From assembly GCF_000378125.1 (NCBI RefSeq), contig NZ_KB899242.1, positions 186,001-250,000 of the forward strand: DNA of 64,000 nucleotides, read 5' to 3'. Shown in pieces: positions 53,241 to 64,000 of the stretch. The notes under the pieces were generated by a model that was not told the origin of the DNA, did no database searches, and saw only the letters and a list, made by a program, of their open reading frames with translations. Numbering within the stretch: the first letter of the stretch is position 1; every line of letters begins with the position of its first letter. Both the position numbers and the translations under genes were made by a program. This DNA comes from Rudaea cellulosilytica DSM 22992. Its GTDB lineage: Bacteria; Pseudomonadota; Gammaproteobacteria; Xanthomonadales; Rhodanobacteraceae.

Positions 53241-55298
53241 TCACAGGTCCAGAACGAGAGTGGCGCTGCGCGCGCGCGAACAGCACGGCGTGAAGCGGTC
53301 GTTGCGCGCGCGCTCTTCCGCGGTGAGGATGCGATCGCGGTGGTCCGGTTCGCCGGCAAGCACCCCGGTGAGGCAAGTGCCGCAGACGCCCTGCTCGCAG
53401 GAGCGCGGCAGCACGATGCCATTCGCGGCGAGCACCTCGAGCACGCTCGCGTTCTTGCCGACCGAATAGCTCTTGCCCGAGCTTGCGAGCTTGACGACGA
53501 AGTCGGTGTCGTTCGCCGAGCGCAGCAGGTCGGCGGAAAAATATTCGCGATGAAGGTTCTGCTCTTTCCATCCGGCGCGGTTCGCGGCGAGCAGCGCTGC
53601 GTCCATGAAGCGTGTCGGCCCGCAGACGTACAAGTGCGTTCCTGCATCGGGCCGCGCAAGCACGTCATCCAGGTTGGTCCGCCGCTCCGGCACTCCTTGG
53701 CTGAAATGGAACTGCGCGCGATCGGCAAACGCCGATCGTTCGATTCGCCCAAGGAAAGCCGCGTGCTCGCGCGAACGTGCCCAGTAGTGCAAGCGGAAAT
53801 CGGCCCCGGTATTGGCCAGGCGTTCGGCCATGCACAGGATCGGCGTGATGCCGATGCCCGCGGCGAGCAGCAGCGAGCGTTCCGCCCCGTGCGCGAGCGG
53901 AAAATGGTTGCGTGGCTCGCCGATGCGGATCAGATCGCCTTCATCGACTTCCTCGTGCATCGCGCGCGAGCCGCCACGCGAGTCGTTCGTGCGCAATACG
54001 CCGATCAGGTAGCGATGCGTTTCGCGTGGGTCGTTGCACAGCGAATACTGGCGCACGAGTCCGTCGCGCACCTGCACGTCGATGTGCGCGCCGGCGGAGA
54101 ACGAAGGCAAGGCGGCGCCATCCGGATCGGCCAGCTCGAACGTGCAGATGTTCGCCGCCTCGACCGACTTGCGCACGATGCGCACCTGGCGCGGCAGCCG
54201 CGACGGATCGCGCTGCGCACGGCGCAACCAGCTGCGTATGCCGGTGTAACCGAGCACGGGCACGCAAAGCACGCCGAACAACAGCAGCGCCTGTCCGACC
54301 CAGCCGCCGACGTAACCGGTGTGGATCGACAGCGTCCAGAAATACAGACGATGGCCGAGGCTGCTCGCGGCGTAGGGCGTAAAGCTCAGGGTGTCGCCCG
54401 TGTAGGCGTCGAGCGCGATCAACGTGCGCGCGTTCGGGTGTGGCGCATCGAGGTCGATCGCGTAGATTTCGACCGGATCTTCGGCGCGCAGCGGAAAATG
54501 CAGCAGCACCTCGCGCGTCTGCGCATCGAGCGCCTGCACCTTTTGCCAGATCGCTTGCATCGGCAGCCGCTGCGTGCCTGGCGCGACTTCGTGCGAGGCC
54601 TGCGGATGTTCCGGCAGCGGCGAGCCGGTCAGCCGGTAGACCGCGTTGCGATACCAGTCGAAGGACTGCGGCAATCCGGTCAGCACGAGCAGAAGCACGA
54701 TTGCGGCCGCGTACGGTCCGACCGTTTTATGCAATGCAATATGGCTCGCCGCTCCGCGCGCGCGTGGTGTGCGCAGCGCGAGAGCGCGTCGCGCACCGCG
54801 CCAAGTACCGGGCCACCAGAGCACGAGGCCGCCGATGACGAGCACGAGTCCGAACACGATCGCGCTGCTGCCGACGACGAGATTGCCGTTCGGCACGAAG
54901 CGGAAACGATGCAGCTGCTCGAGCATGCCGAACGGACCGCTATAGCGTCCGCGCTGGCCGAGCACTTCGCCGGTGCACGGGTTCAGATAGACGAACATCT
55001 GATCGGTGAAGCGGATCATCGCCGCCGGCATGCGCGCCTCACCGGGCTCGCCGGCAATCAGGCGGATGTAGTCGAGCTTGCCTTTCGGATACGTCTTGAC
55101 CGCGTTCGCGGTCAGCGCATCGAGTGAAACGCGCGCGGCGCAGGTCGGCACGCTGAGCAGATCGCGGTCGAGCGGCGTTTCCAATTGCTTGCGCCACACG
55201 AGCATGCTGCCGGTGAGCGCCATCCACATGATCACGAAGCCGACGCTCAGGCCGACCCAGCGATGGACCGGACGCAATACACGGCGCAGTGCGATCAT
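53241..55298 (-). CDS. PepSY membrane protein fused to an FAD/2Fe-2S reductase
   Basis: 685-aa fusion. Residues 1-360 are a PepSY-TM unit with four membrane helices (VHRWVGLSVGFVIMWMALTG first) and conserved histidines; residues about 380-600 are a ferredoxin-NAD(P)H reductase-like domain (RQYSLCNDP for FAD, LLLAAGIGITPILCMAERL for NADH, HLYVCGPTRFM); residues about 605-685 are a plant-type 2Fe-2S ferredoxin domain (CEQGVCGTC, later FTPCCSRA). The order FAD-NAD-2Fe2S matches phthalate dioxygenase-type reductases. Electrons would pass from NADH through the cluster to the membrane helices and a periplasmic acceptor, as in PepSY siderophore or metal reductases. Second gene of the operon, 13 bp after the binding protein. 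Confidence 0.9.
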   Translation of the reverse strand: MIALRRVLRPVHRWVGLSVGFVIMWMALTGSMLVWRKQLETPLDRDLLSVPTCAARVSLDALTANAVKTYPKGKLDYIRLIAGEPGEARMPAAMIRFTDQMFVYLNPCTGEVLGQRGRYSGPFGMLEQLHRFRFVPNGNLVVGSSAIVFGLVLVIGGLVLWWPGTWRGARRALALRTPRARGAASHIALHKTVGPYAAAIVLLLVLTGLPQSFDWYRNAVYRLTGSPLPEHPQASHEVAPGTQRLPMQAIWQKVQALDAQTREVLLHFPLRAEDPVEIYAIDLDAPHPNARTLIALDAYTGDTLSFTPYAASSLGHRLYFWTLSIHTGYVGGWVGQALLLFGVLCVPVLGYTGIRSWLRRAQRDPSRLPRQVRIVRKSVEAANICTFELADPDGAALPSFSAGAHIDVQVRDGLVRQYSLCNDPRETHRYLIGVLRTNDSRGGSRAMHEEVDEGDLIRIGEPRNHFPLAHGAERSLLLAAGIGITPILCMAERLANTGADFRLHYWARSREHAAFLGRIERSAFADRAQFHFSQGVPERRTNLDDVLARPDAGTHLYVCGPTRFMDAALLAANRAGWKEQNLHREYFSADLLRSANDTDFVVKLASSGKSYSVGKNASVLEVLAANGIVLPRSCEQGVCGTCLTGVLAGEPDHRDRILTAEERARNDRFTPCCSRARSATLVLDL

Positions 55299-55311: not shown

Positions 55312-56319
55312 TCAATGCTGCGCCTTGAGCGCCTTGTCGACGAAGACGTTGGTGTAGGTCTGCTTCACGTCGACCGCCTTGTACTTGGGATTAGCCTCGG
55401 CGAGCACGCGCCACTCGCCGACCGCGCCGTCTTCGGGCATGCGGCCGTCGTTGGCGAACATCGGGATCTGTTCCTTGAGCACCTTGAGGTAATCGTCGCC
55501 GTATTGCTTGCGCACGTCGGGCGGAATCTTCTCCATGATTTCCTCGGGTGTGTGCGTGTTGATGAACTTGAGCGTGCGCACGAAGGCGTTGGCAAGATGC
55601 TGTGCGATCTCGGGCTTCTCCTTCACCTTTGCGCTGGTCATGAAGATCGTGTTCGACGGGAACGGCGCGCCGAGCGCCTTGCGCGTGCCGTCGAGCGTGG
55701 TCAGGTCGGCGAACTGGGTGGCGGCGCCCTGCCCTTCGTAGAAGAATCCGTCCGGTGTCGGCGCGACGACGAGGTCGGCCTTGCCCTCGCGCAGCAACTG
55801 TGCGTTCGCGTCCTTGCCTTCGGTGCCGGTGCGCGTGTACTCGTCGAGCTTGTGGCCGCCGGCGAGCACGAGGTAATTCGCGATCGTCGTCTTCGCAGAA
55901 CCGGCGCCGCCGGAAATGACGCGGCTGCCTTTAAGGTCGGCAGGCTTTTTGTACTTGTCGCGCGCCGAATTGGCGACGAGCACACGCATGCCCGGCGTCA
56001 CGCCGAGCGTTACCACGGCCTCGATCTCCTTGCCTGCGGCGCGCTGCACGATGTTGTGGTGGTAGTAAGCCATGATCGCGTCGACACGGCCGTCCATGAG
56101 CATGTCCATGTACGGCTCTTCGTTGCGCACGTTCATCACGGTCACATCGACGCCCTCGTCGCGAAAATAGCCGAGGTGTTCCGCTATCAGCACCGGAAAC
56201 GAGCGGATCTGCCGGACCTCGTCGACGAGCAGGACGATGCGCTCGCGCGGCGCCGACAAAGCGGGAGCAGCGGCTGCGACGTTGAATAGACAGAACAGGA
56301 GGGCGATCAGACCTTTCAT
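55312..56319 (-). CDS. NMT1/THI5-like ABC substrate-binding protein
   Basis: 335-aa periplasmic binding protein with signal peptide (about 1-23). Typical sequence: FPVLIAEHLGYFRDEGVDVTVMNV near residue 40, RVDAIMAYYHH, and KKPADLKGSRVISGGAGSAKTTIANYL. This family binds thiamine precursors, alkanesulfonates, aliphatic nitriles or formyl-aminopyrimidine. No ABC permease or ATPase gene lies beside it; instead it precedes a membrane reductase. It may deliver or sense the reductase substrate. First gene of a tight three-gene operon (spacing 13 and 5 bp). The promoter gap upstream is 100 bp. Confidence 0.88.
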   Translation of the reverse strand: MKGLIALLFCLFNVAAAAPALSAPRERIVLLVDEVRQIRSFPVLIAEHLGYFRDEGVDVTVMNVRNEEPYMDMLMDGRVDAIMAYYHHNIVQRAAGKEIEAVVTLGVTPGMRVLVANSARDKYKKPADLKGSRVISGGAGSAKTTIANYLVLAGGHKLDEYTRTGTEGKDANAQLLREGKADLVVAPTPDGFFYEGQGAATQFADLTTLDGTRKALGAPFPSNTIFMTSAKVKEKPEIAQHLANAFVRTLKFINTHTPEEIMEKIPPDVRKQYGDDYLKVLKEQIPMFANDGRMPEDGAVGEWRVLAEANPKYKAVDVKQTYTNVFVDKALKAQH

Positions 56320-56419: not shown

Positions 56420-57754
56420 TCAGTCGAGCTGCAAAATTGCACGTCGCAGCGCCGCGACGAGCTGGTCGATGTGCTCCGGCTCGATGATCAGCGGCGGCGA
56501 CAGCACGATGCCCTCGCCAGCCATGCGAATCGCGACGCCCTGCTCGAGACAGGCGCGATGGCAGGCGTAGGAACGTGCGCCCGGTTTGCCGGGAACCGGT
56601 TCGAAGTCGATCGCGGCCATCAGCCCGATGCAGCGAATATCGACGACGTGCGGCAGACCTTGCAGCGAATGCACCGCTTCAGCGAACGCCGGCGCGATGG
56701 CCGCCGCACGCTCGAACAGGCCTTCCTGAGCGTAAACGTCAAGCGTGGCCAACCCTGCAGCGCAGGCCAGCGGATGTCCGGAATAGGTGTAACCGTGCGG
56801 CAACTCGATCGCGGACACCGGCCCCTGCATCAGCGCCTCGTACACGCTGCCGCGCACGAGCACGGCACCCATCGGCACGCAACCGTTGGTCAGGCCTTTC
56901 GCGCAAGTGATCATGTCGGGCACGACGCCGAACTTGTCCGCGGCGAACGCGTGGCCAAGCCGGCCGAACGCGGTGATCACCTCGTCGAAGATCAGCAGGA
57001 TGCCGTACCGGTCGCAGATCTCGCGCAACCGGCGTAGATAATCGAGCGGCGGAAGCAAGACGCCGGTCGAACCCGCCACGGGTTCGACGATCACCGCGGC
57101 GATCGTCGACGCGTCGTGGAGCTGCACGAGGCGAACGAGATCGTCGGCCAGATGCGCGCCCCACGAGGGCTGCCCTCGCGTGAACGCGGTCTCTGCCCGG
57201 TTGTACGTATGCGGCAGGTGATCCACGCTCGCGAGCAGGTTGCCGAACGGCTTGCGATGGCCGGCATGGCCGCCGACCGAGATGCCGCCGAAGCCGACGC
57301 CATGGTAACCGCGCTCGCGTCCGATCAAGCGCGTTCGCCCGGCGTGGCCTTTGGCATGGTGAAAGGCCAGCGCGATCTTCAGCGCGGTGTCGACCGCCTC
57401 CGAACCCGAATTGGTGAAAAACACCTGTTCGAACCCCTGCGGCGCAAGCGCGACGAGGCGCTCAGCGAGTTCGAATGCGCGCGGGTGGCCATACTGGAAC
57501 GAGGGCGCGTAGTCGAGCTCGGCCGCCTGCTTCGCAATCGCCTGCGTGATGTGGGGATGCGCGTGGCCGGCATTGACGCACCAGAGACCCGCCATCGCAT
57601 CGAGCATTTTCTCGCCCGACGGCGTGTAGTAGTACATGCCCTGCGCACGCTCGAACAGGATCGGATCGCTCTTGAAGCGGCGGTTGGACGTGAACGGCAT
57701 CCAATAAGCCCGCGTGCCTGCGGGATCGACAGCTTTGTTCGCGGGGGAATTCAT
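56420..57754 (-). CDS. Class III aminotransferase (omega-amino acid:pyruvate type)
   Basis: 444-aa PLP enzyme. PLP lysine K286 (TCAKGLTNG), aspartate D257 (LIFDEVI), GSEAVDTALK phosphate loop (117-126) and PSFQYGHPR substrate region are present. Closest by motif to beta-alanine/omega-amino acid:pyruvate aminotransferases (for example GLWCVNAGHAHP and NGCVPMGAVLV). The promoter gap (40-66 bp before the start) carries an inverted repeat also found before the SBP operon. It is on the same strand as and 169 bp downstream of the gntR gene, whose product probably controls it. Confidence 0.9.
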   Translation of the reverse strand: MNSPANKAVDPAGTRAYWMPFTSNRRFKSDPILFERAQGMYYYTPSGEKMLDAMAGLWCVNAGHAHPHITQAIAKQAAELDYAPSFQYGHPRAFELAERLVALAPQGFEQVFFTNSGSEAVDTALKIALAFHHAKGHAGRTRLIGRERGYHGVGFGGISVGGHAGHRKPFGNLLASVDHLPHTYNRAETAFTRGQPSWGAHLADDLVRLVQLHDASTIAAVIVEPVAGSTGVLLPPLDYLRRLREICDRYGILLIFDEVITAFGRLGHAFAADKFGVVPDMITCAKGLTNGCVPMGAVLVRGSVYEALMQGPVSAIELPHGYTYSGHPLACAAGLATLDVYAQEGLFERAAAIAPAFAEAVHSLQGLPHVVDIRCIGLMAAIDFEPVPGKPGARSYACHRACLEQGVAIRMAGEGIVLSPPLIIEPEHIDQLVAALRRAILQLD

Positions 57755-57793: not shown

Positions 57794-57820
57794 ATTGCAT
57801 TTTTTGACGGAAAATACAAT
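57794..57820 (-). promoter_or_regulatory. Putative GntR operator before the aminotransferase gene
   Basis: ATTGCATT (57794-57801), 11 bp, AATACAAT (57813-57820): an inverted repeat with one mismatch. It lies 40 bp upstream of the aminotransferase start. The same two half-sites, 12 bp apart, occur at 58988-59015 in the divergent gntR promoter. AT-rich against a GC-rich background. Confidence 0.65.
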
Positions 57821-57923
57821 TTATGGAGACAGACTCAAGCCCATACCGGCGACGCCAAAAGCGCGACCACGCGCCTGCCAGCCGGCAGGTAGGCACGCTG
57901 CAACCGCAGCACAGCAGGGGGAA

Positions 57924-58868
57924 TCAGGAGGCCGGGAGTTCGGCGTCGCGCGCAATCGCGGCCGGCGCCTGGCGCCGGCCGATCGAAAGTGCGCAAGCAA
58001 TCTTGAGATGATGCAGCATCAACGCTTCGGCGAAGATATTGTCACCGGCCTCGATCGCAGCGATGATCTGCAGCAGGCGCTTGCACGACTCGATCACGTT
58101 ACGGTTCGGGCCGGAGTAGCTGGAAAACTCCTCGAAGCGGCGCAGCTGGTTCTGCTGCTGCATTGCCTGCAGGATGAAGCGGTTGCCGGAGAAGCGCATC
58201 AGCATCTCGTGGAACGCGGAATTCATCGCGAAGAACGCCGAAGAAGTTTGCGCGCGCGGGCTGCGCGCGAGGAAATCCTCGTAGCGGCGGCGCGCCGCGG
58301 CAAGTTCCTCAGGCACGACCTTGAACGTCGGCTCGCGCAGCGCGGCGCATTCGATGACCATGCGGAAACGATAAGCTTCGTACAGCGCTTCCTCGGAATC
58401 GAGCGCGGGCAGGAACTGCCAACCATGGCCGCGTCGGCGCCGGATCAGGCCTTCGCGCGTGAGCCGCAGCAGCGCGTGCATCAGCACGCTTTTCGGCGCG
58501 CCGTAGCGCGCCATCAGTTCGGTCTCGGACAGCGCCTTGGGCAGCTTGCCGCCGGCGCGCTCGGTGATGATAGCGTGGTACAGATCGTCGGCGGTCGGAT
58601 TCGGGTTCTCCAGCGCGGTCATGCGCATGCGCGGCGCGCGCTTGGATACAAATACGCCGGCGTTCGCGCGGGCTTCGAGATAGCCGCGATCCTGCAGCAT
58701 CTTCAACGCAGCGCGCACGGGCGAACGCGATACGCCGTAGCGCCTGGCCAACGCCGCTTCGGTAAGGTGATCGCCGGGACCGACGCTGCCGTTGCGGATC
58801 GTCTCCATTATCTGGTTGGCGATCTCGATCTGCAGCGAACTGGGTTGGGGAGCTGGCTCTTCCCGCAT
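57924..58868 (-). CDS. GntR-family regulator with two winged-helix domains and an FCD domain
   Basis: 314-aa regulator. The first winged helix (about 10-78) is GntR/FadR type: IMETIRNGSVGPGDHLTEAA, LARRYGVSRSPVRAALKML. A second winged-helix-like segment (about 92-155) follows: LPKALSETELMARYGAPKSV and LLRLTREGLIRRRRGHGWQF. The FCD ligand domain (about 160-290) contains YRFRMVIECAALREP, FHEMLMRF and the last conserved histidine HHLKIACAL, usually binding a carboxylate and metal. The double wing is unusual among FadR-type members. Divergent from the binding protein operon with a 210-bp gap bearing a matching operator. Probably represses both neighbouring transcription units and itself. Confidence 0.9.
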   Translation of the reverse strand: MREEPAPQPSSLQIEIANQIMETIRNGSVGPGDHLTEAALARRYGVSRSPVRAALKMLQDRGYLEARANAGVFVSKRAPRMRMTALENPNPTADDLYHAIITERAGGKLPKALSETELMARYGAPKSVLMHALLRLTREGLIRRRRGHGWQFLPALDSEEALYEAYRFRMVIECAALREPTFKVVPEELAAARRRYEDFLARSPRAQTSSAFFAMNSAFHEMLMRFSGNRFILQAMQQQNQLRRFEEFSSYSGPNRNVIESCKRLLQIIAAIEAGDNIFAEALMLHHLKIACALSIGRRQAPAAIARDAELPAS

Positions 58869-58982
58869 CCGGCGGCATCCTTCGGCTGGTCATGGACTGG
58901 CTGCGTGCGAGTATAACTTGCGCGCCGCACGGCACGTGCGCGGCGGCGCGCCGGCGCACGCGTCAGGCTGCCGCTGTGGAGC

Positions 58983-59015
58983 ATTGTATTGCATTTTATT
59001 AGCATCTAATACAAT
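58983..59015. promoter_or_regulatory. Putative GntR operator in the divergent promoter
   Basis: ATTGCATT (58988-58995), 12 bp, AATACAAT (59008-59015), overlapped by a further half-site ATTGTATT (58983-58990) that pairs perfectly with AATACAAT across 17 bp. It lies between gntR and the binding protein gene, 64 bp before the latter. Same half-sites as 57794-57820. Confidence 0.7.
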
Positions 59016-59078: not shown

Positions 59079-60752
59079 ATGCACCCCTTGCCAACCCTGC
59101 TGTTCGCCTTGTGCTTGCTCGCCTCGATGCGCGCATCGGCACAGGATGTGAAGCCCGAAGGCACGATCGTCGTGGCGATGAACGCCGACATCCGCACGAC
59201 CAACCCCGGCGTCAACCGCGACGCGAACACCGATTCGGTGATGATGCATATCGTCGAAGGGCTCGTCGGCTACCGCGAGGACGGGACGCCCGCCCCGCTG
59301 CTTGCGCAGAGCATCGACGTCTCCGCCGACGGCAGAACCTATACGTTCCGCCTGCGCGACGGCATCCGCTTTCACAATGGCGCCGTGCTCGCTGCCGACG
59401 ATGTGGTCTGGAGCTGGCGCCGCTACCTCGACCCGAAGACGCTGTGGACTTGCCTGGCCGACTTCGACGGCAGCCGCGGACTGAAAATCGAATCGGTGCA
59501 AGCGGCAGACGCGCACAGCGTGGTGTTCAAGCTCAATCGCGCCGCGCCGCTGCTGCTGACGCAGATGGCTGCGCTGCCCTGCGGCGCAAGCGGCATCGTC
59601 CACCGCGACTCGGTCAACGCCGACGGATCGTGGAAAACGCCGATCGGCACCGGCCCCTACCAACTGGAAACTTGGCGGCGCGGCGAATACATCGAACTCG
59701 CCGCGTTCACCGGCTACGCCTCGCGCGGCGGCCCACCCGATGGCTACACGGGCGGCAAGACCGCCTACGCGCGGAAGGTGCGCTGGCTGTTCATCCGCGA
59801 CGACGCCGCGCGCCGCGTCGCCCTGATCAAAGGCCAGATCGATGTGCTGCCGATCGTGCAGGTGTCCGAATTCGCGCAGATCCGCAAGCTGCCGCATGTC
59901 ACGCTGAAGAGCGCGCCGCTGCTCACGGTCAATGCGCTGCTGATGCAGACGCGCGACCCCGCGCTCGCAGACCCTAAATTCCGCCGCGCGCTCGCGACTG
60001 CGCTCGACACCGGCGCGATCGCCGAGATCGCCTCCGGCGGCACGGGCGTCGCCAGCGCATCGATGGTACCGGTGACGAGCCCGTATTTCTCCGCCGCGCA
60101 GAAACGGGGCTACGACTACAACTTGGCACGCGCCAAACAACTGCTTGCCGAATCGAGCTATCACGGCGAGAAGATCAAGCTCGTCACCAACCGCCGCTAT
60201 CCGGACATGTACGACCAGTCGATCATGATCCAATCGATGGCACGTGAGGCCGGCATCCGCCTCGAGCTCGAAGTCACCGAGTGGGCGACCCAGCTCGAAC
60301 GCTACATGAGCGGCAACTATCAACTGATGTCGTACGGCTATTCCGCGCGCACCGACCCCTACCTCGGCTACGACGCGATGCTCGGTGACAAGAGCAAAAG
60401 CAAACGCAAGGTCTGGGACGATAGGCAGGCCATCGCCCTGCTCGCCGATGCCGGCGCGAGCGCCGATCGCGCCGAGCGCCAGGCGCTGTTCGACAAGATG
60501 CATGCGCTGATGCTCGAGGACACGCCGCTGGTCGTGCTGTTCTGCCCCGCCGACGTCGTCGCGATCAAGCGCGAACTCGACGGCTTCCGACCCTGGGGCA
60601 TCGGCCGCGAACGCCTGTGGAACGTGCGCCGCATCGGCCGAACGTCGGCAGCTGCCGCGGCCGCGGCATTTTCAGGTTTCAGACAGGATTCGGTGTCAGG
60701 CTCGGCACCGGATTCCGCCACACGATCCGATTCGGGGAGGAAAACACGATGA
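59079..60752 (+). CDS. Family 5 ABC substrate-binding protein (peptide/amine)
   Basis: 557-aa periplasmic binding protein of the DppA/OppA/GsiB family with signal peptide MHPLPTLLFALCLLASMRASAQ. Typical SBP_bac_5 sequence: TIVVAMNADIRTTNPGVN, the conserved YTFRLRDGIRFHNGAVLAADDVVWSW, and RPWGIGRERLWNVR near the end. It would capture a peptide, polyamine or related compound. The start ATG 59079 opens the signal peptide; a weak site precedes it. No DppBCDF permease lies in the window, so it is an orphan, unless it follows past 64 kb. The stop overlaps the alpha/beta hydrolase gene (ATGA). Confidence 0.92.
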   Translation: MHPLPTLLFALCLLASMRASAQDVKPEGTIVVAMNADIRTTNPGVNRDANTDSVMMHIVEGLVGYREDGTPAPLLAQSIDVSADGRTYTFRLRDGIRFHNGAVLAADDVVWSWRRYLDPKTLWTCLADFDGSRGLKIESVQAADAHSVVFKLNRAAPLLLTQMAALPCGASGIVHRDSVNADGSWKTPIGTGPYQLETWRRGEYIELAAFTGYASRGGPPDGYTGGKTAYARKVRWLFIRDDAARRVALIKGQIDVLPIVQVSEFAQIRKLPHVTLKSAPLLTVNALLMQTRDPALADPKFRRALATALDTGAIAEIASGGTGVASASMVPVTSPYFSAAQKRGYDYNLARAKQLLAESSYHGEKIKLVTNRRYPDMYDQSIMIQSMAREAGIRLELEVTEWATQLERYMSGNYQLMSYGYSARTDPYLGYDAMLGDKSKSKRKVWDDRQAIALLADAGASADRAERQALFDKMHALMLEDTPLVVLFCPADVVAIKRELDGFRPWGIGRERLWNVRRIGRTSAAAAAAAFSGFRQDSVSGSAPDSATRSDSGRKTR

Positions 60753-61810
60753 AAACATTCCGATTTGCTGCCGCATGCTGCGCACTCGTCCTAGGTACCG
60801 CGTTGGCCTGCGGCCATGCCTGCGCCGCGGATGCCAAGGCAGCCGACAAGAAAACCGTCGAGAAGAAGGCGGCCAAAGAGGGCGACCTCGACAAGTTCAT
60901 CAACCTCGATTCCGACGACATCGACACGAAAGTCGAAGTGATCACACAGACGCTGTACGAACAGGAACAACGCATCGTCACCCTGACCTTCATGCAGGAA
61001 TTCGGCGATCGGGTGAAACTGAAACGCGTCGCCTACGCGAGTGCCGACGGCACGCTGATCCCTGGCTACGTGTTCACGCCGCTCAAGCCCGAAGCCGGGA
61101 AGAAATATCCCGCCATTGTCATGGTCCACGGCGGTTTCCACGAGCGCTTCGACTGGCGCTGGTTCCAACTCATCGACCTGGCCGTGACCAAGGGTTATGT
61201 CGTGATCTTCCCCGAATATCGCGGCAGCCGCGGCTACGGCGCCAACCACTACGTCAACGAATACGGCATTACCGATACGGCTGACGTGCTCGCCGCAGCG
61301 CATTATTTCTCCGGCCTCGACTACGTCGATCCGGCGCGCCTCGCCATCTTCGGCCAGAGTCGCGGCGGCATGGTCACGCTGCTCGCGATCGAGAAGGAGC
61401 CGGCGCTGTTCAAGGCTGCGATCGACATCGTCGGCCTCGCCGACTTCGTCGCCTACATGGCCTACAAGCCAGACTACCGCCGCAACGAAGTGGCCAAGGA
61501 AAGCGCCTACTTCAAGGGCAAGCTGCCGAACGAGAACCTGGGCGCCTACATGGACGTCTCGCCGATCAACCACGTCGACAAGATTCAGGCGCCGCTGCTC
61601 GTGCTCGCGACCAAGGGCGACAAGATCGCGCCGTACGACCTGCACACCGGCCGGCTGCTCGACGTGCTCAAATCCAAGGGCAAGGTGTTCGAGTCCAAGA
61701 CTTACGACAACGCACCCGGCGGCCACATCTTCATGGACGGCGACACGCCCGAGCAGCGCGACGCGCTGCAGCGCAGTTTCGATTTCCTCGGCAAATACCT
61801 GAAGCCCTAA
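60749..61810 (+). CDS. Exported S9-like alpha/beta hydrolase
   Basis: 353-aa secreted hydrolase. Signal peptide about 1-26 (ending ACAA). The alpha/beta fold has nucleophile S204 in FGQSRGG, oxyanion region VHGGF (126-130), acid D near ATKGDKIAP and histidine in PGGHIFMDG. It resembles prolyl-oligopeptidase-type domains (dipeptidyl peptidase S9 family) without the N-terminal propeller. A Lys-rich linker (30-48) follows the signal. Overlaps the binding protein gene by 4 bp, implying coordinate use: it may cleave the ligand in the periplasm. Confidence 0.9.
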   Translation: MKTFRFAAACCALVLGTALACGHACAADAKAADKKTVEKKAAKEGDLDKFINLDSDDIDTKVEVITQTLYEQEQRIVTLTFMQEFGDRVKLKRVAYASADGTLIPGYVFTPLKPEAGKKYPAIVMVHGGFHERFDWRWFQLIDLAVTKGYVVIFPEYRGSRGYGANHYVNEYGITDTADVLAAAHYFSGLDYVDPARLAIFGQSRGGMVTLLAIEKEPALFKAAIDIVGLADFVAYMAYKPDYRRNEVAKESAYFKGKLPNENLGAYMDVSPINHVDKIQAPLLVLATKGDKIAPYDLHTGRLLDVLKSKGKVFESKTYDNAPGGHIFMDGDTPEQRDALQRSFDFLGKYLKP

Positions 61811-61898: not shown

Positions 61899-62690
61899 AT
61901 GAACTCCGCGTTCGCAAAAATATACTTTTTCACCACAGCCGTCCTGCTCCTGCTCCTCGCGCACAACCCCGCCCGCGCAGCCGATTCCGATCCGCGCACG
62001 AGCGGTCCGCGCAGCCTGCTGATCGCCTACCACACCACGCCGGCGAACCGTGAAAAGCTGCGCAACTACATGCTGAGCATCGGCCTCAAGGACTTCGCCC
62101 AGTGGAAGCGCGAGGGTGCGATCGCCGACTACCACGTCTATTTCAACCGCTACATCGACTCGGACAATTGGGACATGTTCGCCAATGTCACGCTTGCCGC
62201 CGAAAACGGCACCGCGCGCTGGGCGCGGATCGAGGCGAACCACCCGGCCGGCCTCGGCGAGGCGGCGGTCGCGCTGACCACGGCGGTGCACACCACGGTC
62301 GCCGACCTCATGCGCAGCAAGTCTACGCCGGCGAAGGGCGGCAAGCCGCCGGTCTACCTGATGATTCCCTACGATTATCTCGTTTCGGTGAGCGACTACA
62401 TAAAATACGTTGACGCCTACGTGCTGCCGCAGGCCGACGGCTGGGCCGACGAGAAGGTGCTGTCGGGCTACGGCTTTTATCTCTCGCGCTATCCGGCCGG
62501 CCGGCCGTGGAGCGCGATGTTCGTGTTCGAGTATGCCGACGAGGACGGCCTCGGCTCGCGCGACGTGACCGTAGCCAAGGTGCGCGAGCGCCTGAAGCAG
62601 AATCCCGAATGGAAAGCGATTGCCGACAACAAGCACAACGTGCGCAACGAAAAGCAACCGGTCGTCGCCGACGAACTGATCGCGCGCTGA
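61899..62690 (+). CDS. Exported protein of unknown function with a two-fold internal repeat
   Basis: 263-aa secreted protein, signal peptide about 1-28. Two halves look alike: about 38-125 (REKLRNYMLSIGLKDFAQWK, IADYHVYFNRYID, DNWDMFANVTL) and about 150-235 (SVSDYIKYVDAYVLPQADGW, LSGYGFYLSRYPAG, RPWSAMFVFEY). The pattern (helix, strand, strand, helix) resembles dimeric ferredoxin-like barrels, but I cannot name a family. It lies 88 bp after the hydrolase gene and 28 bp before the gabT gene, so it belongs to the operon. Confidence 0.65.
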   Translation: MNSAFAKIYFFTTAVLLLLLAHNPARAADSDPRTSGPRSLLIAYHTTPANREKLRNYMLSIGLKDFAQWKREGAIADYHVYFNRYIDSDNWDMFANVTLAAENGTARWARIEANHPAGLGEAAVALTTAVHTTVADLMRSKSTPAKGGKPPVYLMIPYDYLVSVSDYIKYVDAYVLPQADGWADEKVLSGYGFYLSRYPAGRPWSAMFVFEYADEDGLGSRDVTVAKVRERLKQNPEWKAIADNKHNVRNEKQPVVADELIAR

Positions 62691-62718: not shown

Positions 62719-64000
62719 ATGACGCAATCCAATGCCAGCAATCGCGACTGGATGCAGCGCCGCCGCGCCGCCGTCGCCAATGGGGTCAAGCAGACCCACG
62801 AGATCTTCGCCGCGCGGGCAGAGAACGCCGAACTGTGGGACATCGAAGGCCGCCGCTACATCGACTTCGCTGGCGGCATCGCCGTGCTCAACACGGGTCA
62901 CTGCCATCCGCAGATAGTCGCCGCGGTGCAGGAGCAGCTCGCACGCTTCACCCATACCTGCTTCCAGATCGTCGCCCACGACAACTACGTCGAGGTCGCC
63001 GAAAAGCTCAACGCGCTCGCGCCAGGCGACTTCGCCAAGAAGTCGGTGCTGCTGACCACCGGTGCGGAAGCGGTGGAGAACGCGGTCAAGATCGCGCGCG
63101 CCGCGACCGGGCGTTCTGCGGTGATCACGTTCACCGGCGGCTACCACGGCCGCACACTGATGACACTGGCGATGACCGGCAAGGTCAACCCGTTCAAGCT
63201 CGGCTTCGGCCCGTTCCCGGGCGAAGTGTTCCACGCGCGCTTCCCGAATGCGCTGCACGGCGTGTCGATCGAGGATGCGAAAGCCTCGCTCGAAACGATT
63301 TTCCTCAACGACGTCGAACCTTCGCGCGTCGCCGCGATCGCGATCGAGCCGATCCAAGGTGAAGGCGGCTTCTACGTCGCGCCGTTCGAATTCCTGCGCT
63401 GGCTGCGCGCGCTATGCGACAAGCACGGCATCCTGCTGATCGCCGACGAGATCCAGACCGGCGCCGGACGCACGGGCAAATGGTTCGCGATCGAACACTC
63501 GGGTATCGCGCCTGACCTGATCACGACGGCGAAGTCACTCGCCGGCGGCATCCCCCTGTCCGCCGTGGTCGGACGCGCCGAGGTGATGGATGCGCCGCTG
63601 CCGGGCGGACTCGGCGGCACCTACGCGGGCAGTCCGCTCGCCTGTGCGGCGGCGCTCGCCGTGATCCGCGCGTTCGAGGAAGAGAGCCTGCTCGAACAGG
63701 CACGCACGCTCGGCGAACATCTGACGACGCGACTGCATGCGCTGCAGAAGCAATACTCCGCGATCGTCGACGTGCGCGGTCTCGGCGCGATGGTCGCGTT
63801 CGAGTTGTTCAGCGCCGACGGCAAACCAGACGCCGATCTGGCCGCGAAGTTGGTCAGGTATTCGCTGCAACATGGACTGATCCTGCTCGCCTGCGGCATG
63901 TTCGGCAACGTGATCCGCATCCTCGTGCCGCTGACCGCATCGACCGGGCTGGTCGATGAAGGCCTCGACATCATCGCCGGTGGCCTGCGCGAACTGACGC
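62719..64000 (+). CDS. gabT: 4-aminobutyrate aminotransferase (3' end outside window)
   Basis: Class III aminotransferase moving the amino group of 4-aminobutyrate (or 5-aminovalerate/omega-amino acids) to 2-oxoglutarate. PLP lysine K272 in TTAKSLAGG, IADEIQTGAGRTGK with D243, GGYHGRTLMTLAMTG, and TTGAEAVENAVKIARA. The sequence begins MTQSNASNRDWMQRR and aligns with E. coli GabT; about 427 codons are visible, nearly the full length, and the stop is past the edge. Located at the end of the GntR-controlled operon, it suggests that the captured compound yields a 4-carbon omega-amino acid. Confidence 0.93.
   Translation, partial: MTQSNASNRDWMQRRRAAVANGVKQTHEIFAARAENAELWDIEGRRYIDFAGGIAVLNTGHCHPQIVAAVQEQLARFTHTCFQIVAHDNYVEVAEKLNALAPGDFAKKSVLLTTGAEAVENAVKIARAATGRSAVITFTGGYHGRTLMTLAMTGKVNPFKLGFGPFPGEVFHARFPNALHGVSIEDAKASLETIFLNDVEPSRVAAIAIEPIQGEGGFYVAPFEFLRWLRALCDKHGILLIADEIQTGAGRTGKWFAIEHSGIAPDLITTAKSLAGGIPLSAVVGRAEVMDAPLPGGLGGTYAGSPLACAAALAVIRAFEEESLLEQARTLGEHLTTRLHALQKQYSAIVDVRGLGAMVAFELFSADGKPDADLAAKLVRYSLQHGLILLACGMFGNVIRILVPLTASTGLVDEGLDIIAGGLRELT

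Follow-up and report, generated by a model that had tools for sequence, protein, structure and literature searches.

A tandem winged-helix GntR/FCD regulator and its predicted split operators in a probable catabolic gene cluster of Rudaea cellulosilytica

GntR proteins are among the commonest bacterial regulators, and operator prediction for their FadR subfamily relies on a compact GT-N2-3-AC palindrome. The FCD regulators characterised so far mostly act as repressors that an effector releases. Members of the FadR/FCD subfamily (FadR, VanR/Atu1419, PmiR, TM0439) have in common an N-terminal GntR winged helix (wHTH) with an SRxPVR helix, a C-terminal all-helical FCD domain, a palindromic AT-rich operator with GT/AC boxes, and a gene beside a catabolic operon. 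In FadR-subfamily operators, 2-3 nt lie between GT and AC (PMC4494728), and Atu1419 binds a 10-bp palindrome (PMC7797058). BusR has one wHTH per chain and an RCK_C domain, and its tetramer uses a coiled-coil ruler on motifs 22 bp apart (PMC8517857). NanR is reported to bind as three dimers to a (GGTATA)3 repeat operator (PMC8012715).

In the 64,000-nucleotide stretch of Rudaea cellulosilytica DNA that was analysed (the window), gntR (57924..58868, minus strand) encodes a regulator of 314 residues that shares the features of the FadR/FCD subfamily, with operators that are predicted. Pfam matched GntR in two stretches (PF00392, E = 3.4e-26) and FCD once (PF07729, E = 1.3e-16), and gave no match to RCK_C. 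The AlphaFold2 model (mean pLDDT 83, pTM 0.61) presented two H-H-H-E-E modules at residues 11-74 and 93-152 and a helical domain at 159-309. The first module, wHTH1 (residues 11-74; 58647..58838, minus strand), has a canonical recognition helix, VSRSPVR, according to Pfam, alignment and model. In wHTH2 (residues 93-152; 58413..58592, minus strand), defined by alignment and model, the recognition helix is degenerate, having lost the proline and the second arginine, and the wing GHGWQFLP is conserved. The FCD effector/oligomerisation domain occupies residues 159-300 (57969..58394, minus strand; Pfam and model). Profile and predicted model together show two tandem GntR winged helices, the second inserted between wHTH1 and FCD in contrast with the FadR/FCD subfamily. 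The original prediction missed the second DNA-binding domain.

The tandem wHTH and FCD are common to all aligned relatives, which are 32-50% identical and belong to alpha-, beta- and gammaproteobacteria. They were found in Massilia, Pseudomonas, Burkholderia, Ottowia, Tabrizicola and several MAGs, and on plasmids of Agrobacterium, Shinella, Rhizobium, Tistrella, Chelatococcus, Phyllobacterium, Pantoea and others. Most members keep a basic residue at the key position of wHTH2, and this domain may still make contact with DNA. The PDB structures that matched best were ordinary single-wHTH FCD proteins. A class-wide profile search (369 genomes, E <= 1e-30) returned the regulator's own genome only, which suggests either a rare subfamily or an overly strict filter, and a literature search limited to open-licence papers found no published tandem-wHTH GntR protein. 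To our knowledge, no tandem wHTH is known for NanR, which is likewise an FCD regulator with a non-standard operator, a repeat in NanR and a split inverted repeat in Rudaea. As a separate observation, the Rudaea regulators are without the histidine of the SCxEH motif found in most relatives (ESCKRLLQ instead) and have an N four residues before the conserved H220, by which the FCD metal site may be lost.

The gntR gene is encoded between two split inverted repeats. Predicted operator 1, ATTGCATT-N11-AATACAAT (57794..57820, plus strand), lies upstream of the operon of an AptA-like aminotransferase, its near end being 39 bp from the start codon of this class-III aminotransferase gene (57754). Predicted operator 2, ATTGCATT-N12-AATACAAT (58988..59015, plus strand), lies in the divergent promoter region of gntR and SBP5, between the start of gntR (58868, minus strand) and that of the binding-protein gene (59037 or 59079, plus strand). 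It is overlapped, at an offset of 5 bp, by an extra half-site, ATTGTATT (58983..58990, plus strand). The original prediction had placed both repeats and the extra half-site at these positions, with about 40 bp before the aminotransferase gene and the regulator between the sites, and all of this was borne out. It had also pointed to a shared 10-mer, ATTGCATTTT, which both sites do have but which is partly a coincidence, since its two extra T's are absent at the remaining sites (ATTGCATTGT, ATTGCATTAT). The conserved core is ATTGYATT-N11/12-AATRCAAT, in which the outer 16 positions hold 26.4 bits and the inner 12 positions 3.5 bits. From centre to centre, the half-sites are separated by 20-21 bp, roughly two turns of the helix, and lie on one DNA face. 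The GT-to-AC distance in the predicted operators is 18 nt (17-19), whereas that of the FadR/FCD subfamily is 2-3 nt.

The exact split repeat is expected 0 times in shuffles of the window. Over spacers of 8-16 in the 4.34-Mb genome, only three exact matches were found, with spacers of 11, 12 and 12 and all within 8 kb, the third just beyond the window end; chance would give about 0.01 exact pairs per spacer genome-wide. When up to two mismatches were allowed at N11 or N12, the genome contained nine sites, of which six fall within 19 kb (C2:243.8-262.6 kb), a region that extends past the window end and makes up 0.4% of the genome, a clustering with a binomial probability of 5e-13 for a cluster that was defined after the fact. 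The motif is thus not equally common elsewhere in the genome.

The sites of this cluster stand at five promoters, about 10-120 bp from start codons, and operon extents were deduced from strand and spacing. The first promoter precedes the aminotransferase gene (56420..57754, minus strand; NF052567, 690 bits against a cut-off of 500), followed by an NMT1-type substrate-binding protein gene (55312..56319, minus strand; Pfam), which probably belongs to the same operon and directly adjoins the aminotransferase gene in the congener G002. A large, redox-like PepSY/ferredoxin-reductase-like protein is the probable third product (53241..55298, minus strand; an ORF read by sequence, with synteny in G002 and a further congener, G014). 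The second promoter serves gntR on one side and, on the other, genes for an SBP_bac_5 peptide-type solute-binding protein (59079..60752, plus strand; Pfam; the ORF start may be 59037), an S9/alpha-beta hydrolase (60749..61810, plus strand; Pfam), a probably secreted protein with no Pfam or NCBIfam match (61899..62690, plus strand; relatives in loci L038, L040 and L045), and the 4-aminobutyrate transaminase GabT (62719..64000, plus strand, running past the window end; TIGR00700, 582.6 bits against a cut-off of 506.65). Relatives of the probably secreted protein stand beside the same S9 hydrolase gene in G002, G014 and L045 (51% identity). The third promoter belongs to a hydrolase-like protein without a Pfam match, and the fourth lies upstream of genes for a class-I/II PLP enzyme and an amidohydrolase. 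The fifth, which carries two sites 85 bp apart, precedes a C45 acylase-DppB-DppC-DppDF-aldehyde dehydrogenase-CoA-transferase operon and a TonB receptor gene.

These promoters bear on the claim that an aminotransferase, a binding protein, a hydrolase, an unknown protein and gabT form one regulon. A single regulon is supported by clustering, conservation and co-occurrence with the regulator, but the gene list was too short: the same support extends the predicted regulon to the hydrolase-like protein, the class-I/II PLP enzyme and the amidohydrolase, and also to the C45 acylase-Dpp-aldehyde dehydrogenase-CoA-transferase operon and the TonB receptor. A weaker distal site, TTTGTATT-N12-TATACAAT (L036:4432-4459; C1:742431-742458 in G000, the genome of the window), lies upstream of a DUF481 outer-membrane-type gene; among the congeners, only G002 and G014 have counterparts of this site, and the half-sites of these are exact. 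The DUF481 gene is perhaps a distal regulon member. An ORF resembling a WYL-type regulator adjoins the distal site.

Within the genus, the sample comprised three genomes with the regulator, namely G000, G002 (92% identical) and G014 (89%), and 13 congeners without it; the named records of its near relatives are from a Rudaea sp. and a metagenome-assembled genome. All five cluster promoters keep a site in the three genomes, including operator 2 and the unusual N11 at the aminotransferase (G002, C1:83885; G014, C8:1136808), so the scan of related genomes suggested with the original prediction found the sites kept promoter by promoter. As for the extra half-site, GTATTGCATT is kept in 3/3 Rudaea genomes, and the complete half-site was found in G000 only. 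At up to one mismatch, the motif is present in all three regulator-bearing genomes and absent from the 13 congeners without the regulator, a co-occurrence with a probability of 1/560 if motif and regulator were unrelated, although the three genomes may simply be close kin. Considering this comparative genomics, the predicted operator and regulon are well supported. G014 has an extra one-mismatch site outside the cluster (C8:1219942-1219969, L064), near two minus-strand ORFs, and its species may thus have a further target.

Beyond the genus, a gap of 12-13 bp recurs beside relatives of the regulator in Massilia, Pseudomonas, Agrobacterium, Pantoea and Chelatococcus. A first search of non-Rudaea loci with TTGYAT..ATRCAA found a split site in Massilia only; the Pseudomonas sites, which use TGTTTT half-sites, emerged only on aligning promoters. 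Whole loci were then scanned with TGYWTT-Nk-AAWRCA at k = 0-40. The Rudaea loci, from which k = 12 was chosen, gave 10 sites at this spacer and next 3, at k = 11; the Pseudomonas loci gave 13 at k = 12 and next 2, the Massilia/MAG loci gave 2 at k = 12, and no k other than 12 exceeded 3 sites. The half-sites had been generalised after viewing the Pseudomonas and Massilia promoters, so that this first spacer histogram was not blind there, and some loci are near-duplicates, which means that single counts do not stand for independent events. A second test applied the Rudaea-only half-site ATTGYATT/AATRCAAT to 29 non-Rudaea leaders picked by gene coordinates, of which five (L055, L056, L058, L060, L061) precede an operon thought to contain gntR and not gntR directly. 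With k = 13 pooled with 12 after the Agrobacterium and Pantoea leaders had been seen, sites with up to two mismatches were found in 7 of the 29 leaders, where other pairs of adjacent spacers averaged 0.4, and with up to four mismatches in 23, where those pairs gave 7.8. Smaller peaks appeared at k = 8 and 18, each 5 bp from 13. On plasmid At of A. fabrum C58 (L067:8685-8713), the half-sites are identical, ATTGCATT-N13-AATACAAT, and are flanked by the gene of an amino-acid ABC binding protein and by the GntR gene ATU_RS26185 (41% identical). The split site was weak or was not seen in those relatives that are most distant (L045, L053, L060/L061, L080). An inverted-repeat test blind to sequence, run on single leaders, lacked power and left the by-eye spacings unconfirmed as a group; those of L045, L053, L060/L061, L062 and the acid MAGs were matched by eye while sought, and are not counted as evidence.

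Our preferred reading, which we hold to be probable, is that the regulator is an autoregulatory tandem-wHTH repressor of the local catabolic cluster with the split repeats as its operators, controlling its own gene and about 18 genes. In the dimer, the canonical wHTH1 pair would read the ATTGYATT/AATRCAAT half-sites, and the wHTH2 pair, its recognition helices degenerated, would cover the 12-bp middle without reading its sequence and keep the wHTH1 domains on one DNA face at a distance of about two helical turns. The two DNA-binding domains may be the reason why the operator is split, and we infer that the added distance is most readily attributed to the extra winged helix. A wHTH2 acting as a built-in spacer or ruler is plausible, with the case for and against it about evenly balanced. 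The linker between wHTH1 and wHTH2 measures 57-64 residues with a mode of 60 in the N12 and N13 groups alike. Linker length was therefore rejected as the cause of N12 versus N13, and, as the gap does not follow it, the ruler idea is without a simple structural correlate. The closest parallel in this respect is BusR, which has a GntR-type wHTH and a bipartite operator at a fixed distance, a feature known for BusR and proposed for the Rudaea regulator from the strong spacer preference in the sequences of its relatives; the two differ in that the Rudaea regulator has an FCD effector domain and that its proposed spacer is the second wHTH. If the ruler is true, binding is predicted at gaps of 11-13 only, possibly weakly at 22-23, and not to the compact ATTGTATACAAT.

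The same regulator and regulon could also be explained by two dimers, or a dimer of dimers, lying side by side, with each half-site being the stronger side of a compact but degenerate FCD operator and wHTH2 irrelevant to spacing. Weaker extra half-sites do occur 7-12 nt from the site centre in FadR-subfamily operators (PMC4494728), the Atu1419 tetramer can loop between two palindromes (PMC7797058), and one Rudaea site has an extra overlapping half-site. However, the low information of the inner 12 bp leaves no trace of inner half-sites, and in several genera the strict 12-13 bp gap accompanies the tandem-wHTH architecture, so we regard this arrangement as unlikely. More doubtful still is a regulator that activates the cluster, alone or in addition to repressing it. 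The distances of the sites from start codons would suit it, and nothing computed separates activation from repression; repression itself is assumed from family behaviour, as most characterised FCD regulators are effector-released repressors, and operator 2 sits in a divergent promoter region, as expected for a repressor. We consider it very improbable that the split repeat is another regulator's site or a promoter element (overlapping -35/-10 boxes) placed near gntR by accident, since, although AT-rich half-sites and a weak promoter-like match across operator 2 would be in keeping with it, the close motif occurs only in congeners with the regulator, stands beside its relatives in five other genera despite different other neighbours, and holds the GT/AC core of GntR operators in its half-site.

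For the preferred repressor, release by a pathway intermediate is most likely. The cluster would take up and degrade a peptide-like compound of N-acyl or amide-linked type, from which an omega-amino acid results. The TonB receptor, SBP5 and the Dpp transporter would serve uptake, and the C45 acylase, hydrolases, amidohydrolase, two class-III transaminases, one class-I/II PLP enzyme, aldehyde dehydrogenase and CoA-transferase would serve breakdown. Such an uptake-and-deacylation pathway ending in an omega-amino acid fits the predicted AptA and GabT. In Shinella, Rhizobium, Tistrella, Phyllobacterium and Neorhizobium, the regulator likewise has a C45 acylase and a Dpp transporter, mostly with SBP5, as neighbours; those in Tistrella, Chelatococcus and Pseudomonas include a class-III aminotransferase, and those in Agrobacterium and Pantoea are peptidases and an amino-acid ABC transporter. 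The C45/Dpp/GntR combination was not found in the open-licence literature. In Pseudomonas sp. P7548 (L046:5619-17458), the neighbours are a beta-lactamase-fold hydrolase, a class-III aminotransferase, an aldehyde dehydrogenase, an OprD porin and a Dpp transporter, a set that we take to be reminiscent of 6-aminohexanoate oligomer breakdown. Nylon-oligomer- or beta-lactam-like substrates were weighed from these neighbours, and the evidence points to no particular substrate.

GntR/FCD regulators as such are already known, and what appears to be newly described here is one with a tandem wHTH and a split predicted operator. That the relatives form a proteobacterial GntR/FCD subfamily with a duplicated winged helix, in which the second copy is a ruler, the 12-13 bp middle is general and the half-site letters drift by lineage, is in our view about as likely as not. 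The site on plasmid At of A. fabrum C58, a well-studied strain, is a ready-made test case. A tandem-wHTH subgroup with a split operator would escape operator predictions that rely on the compact palindrome. The spacing rule would let operators be proposed and tested for regulators still uncharacterised in Agrobacterium fabrum C58, Pantoea, Pseudomonas and many rhizobia, and would tie those regulators to a recurring module of C45 acylase, Dpp transporter and aminotransferase.
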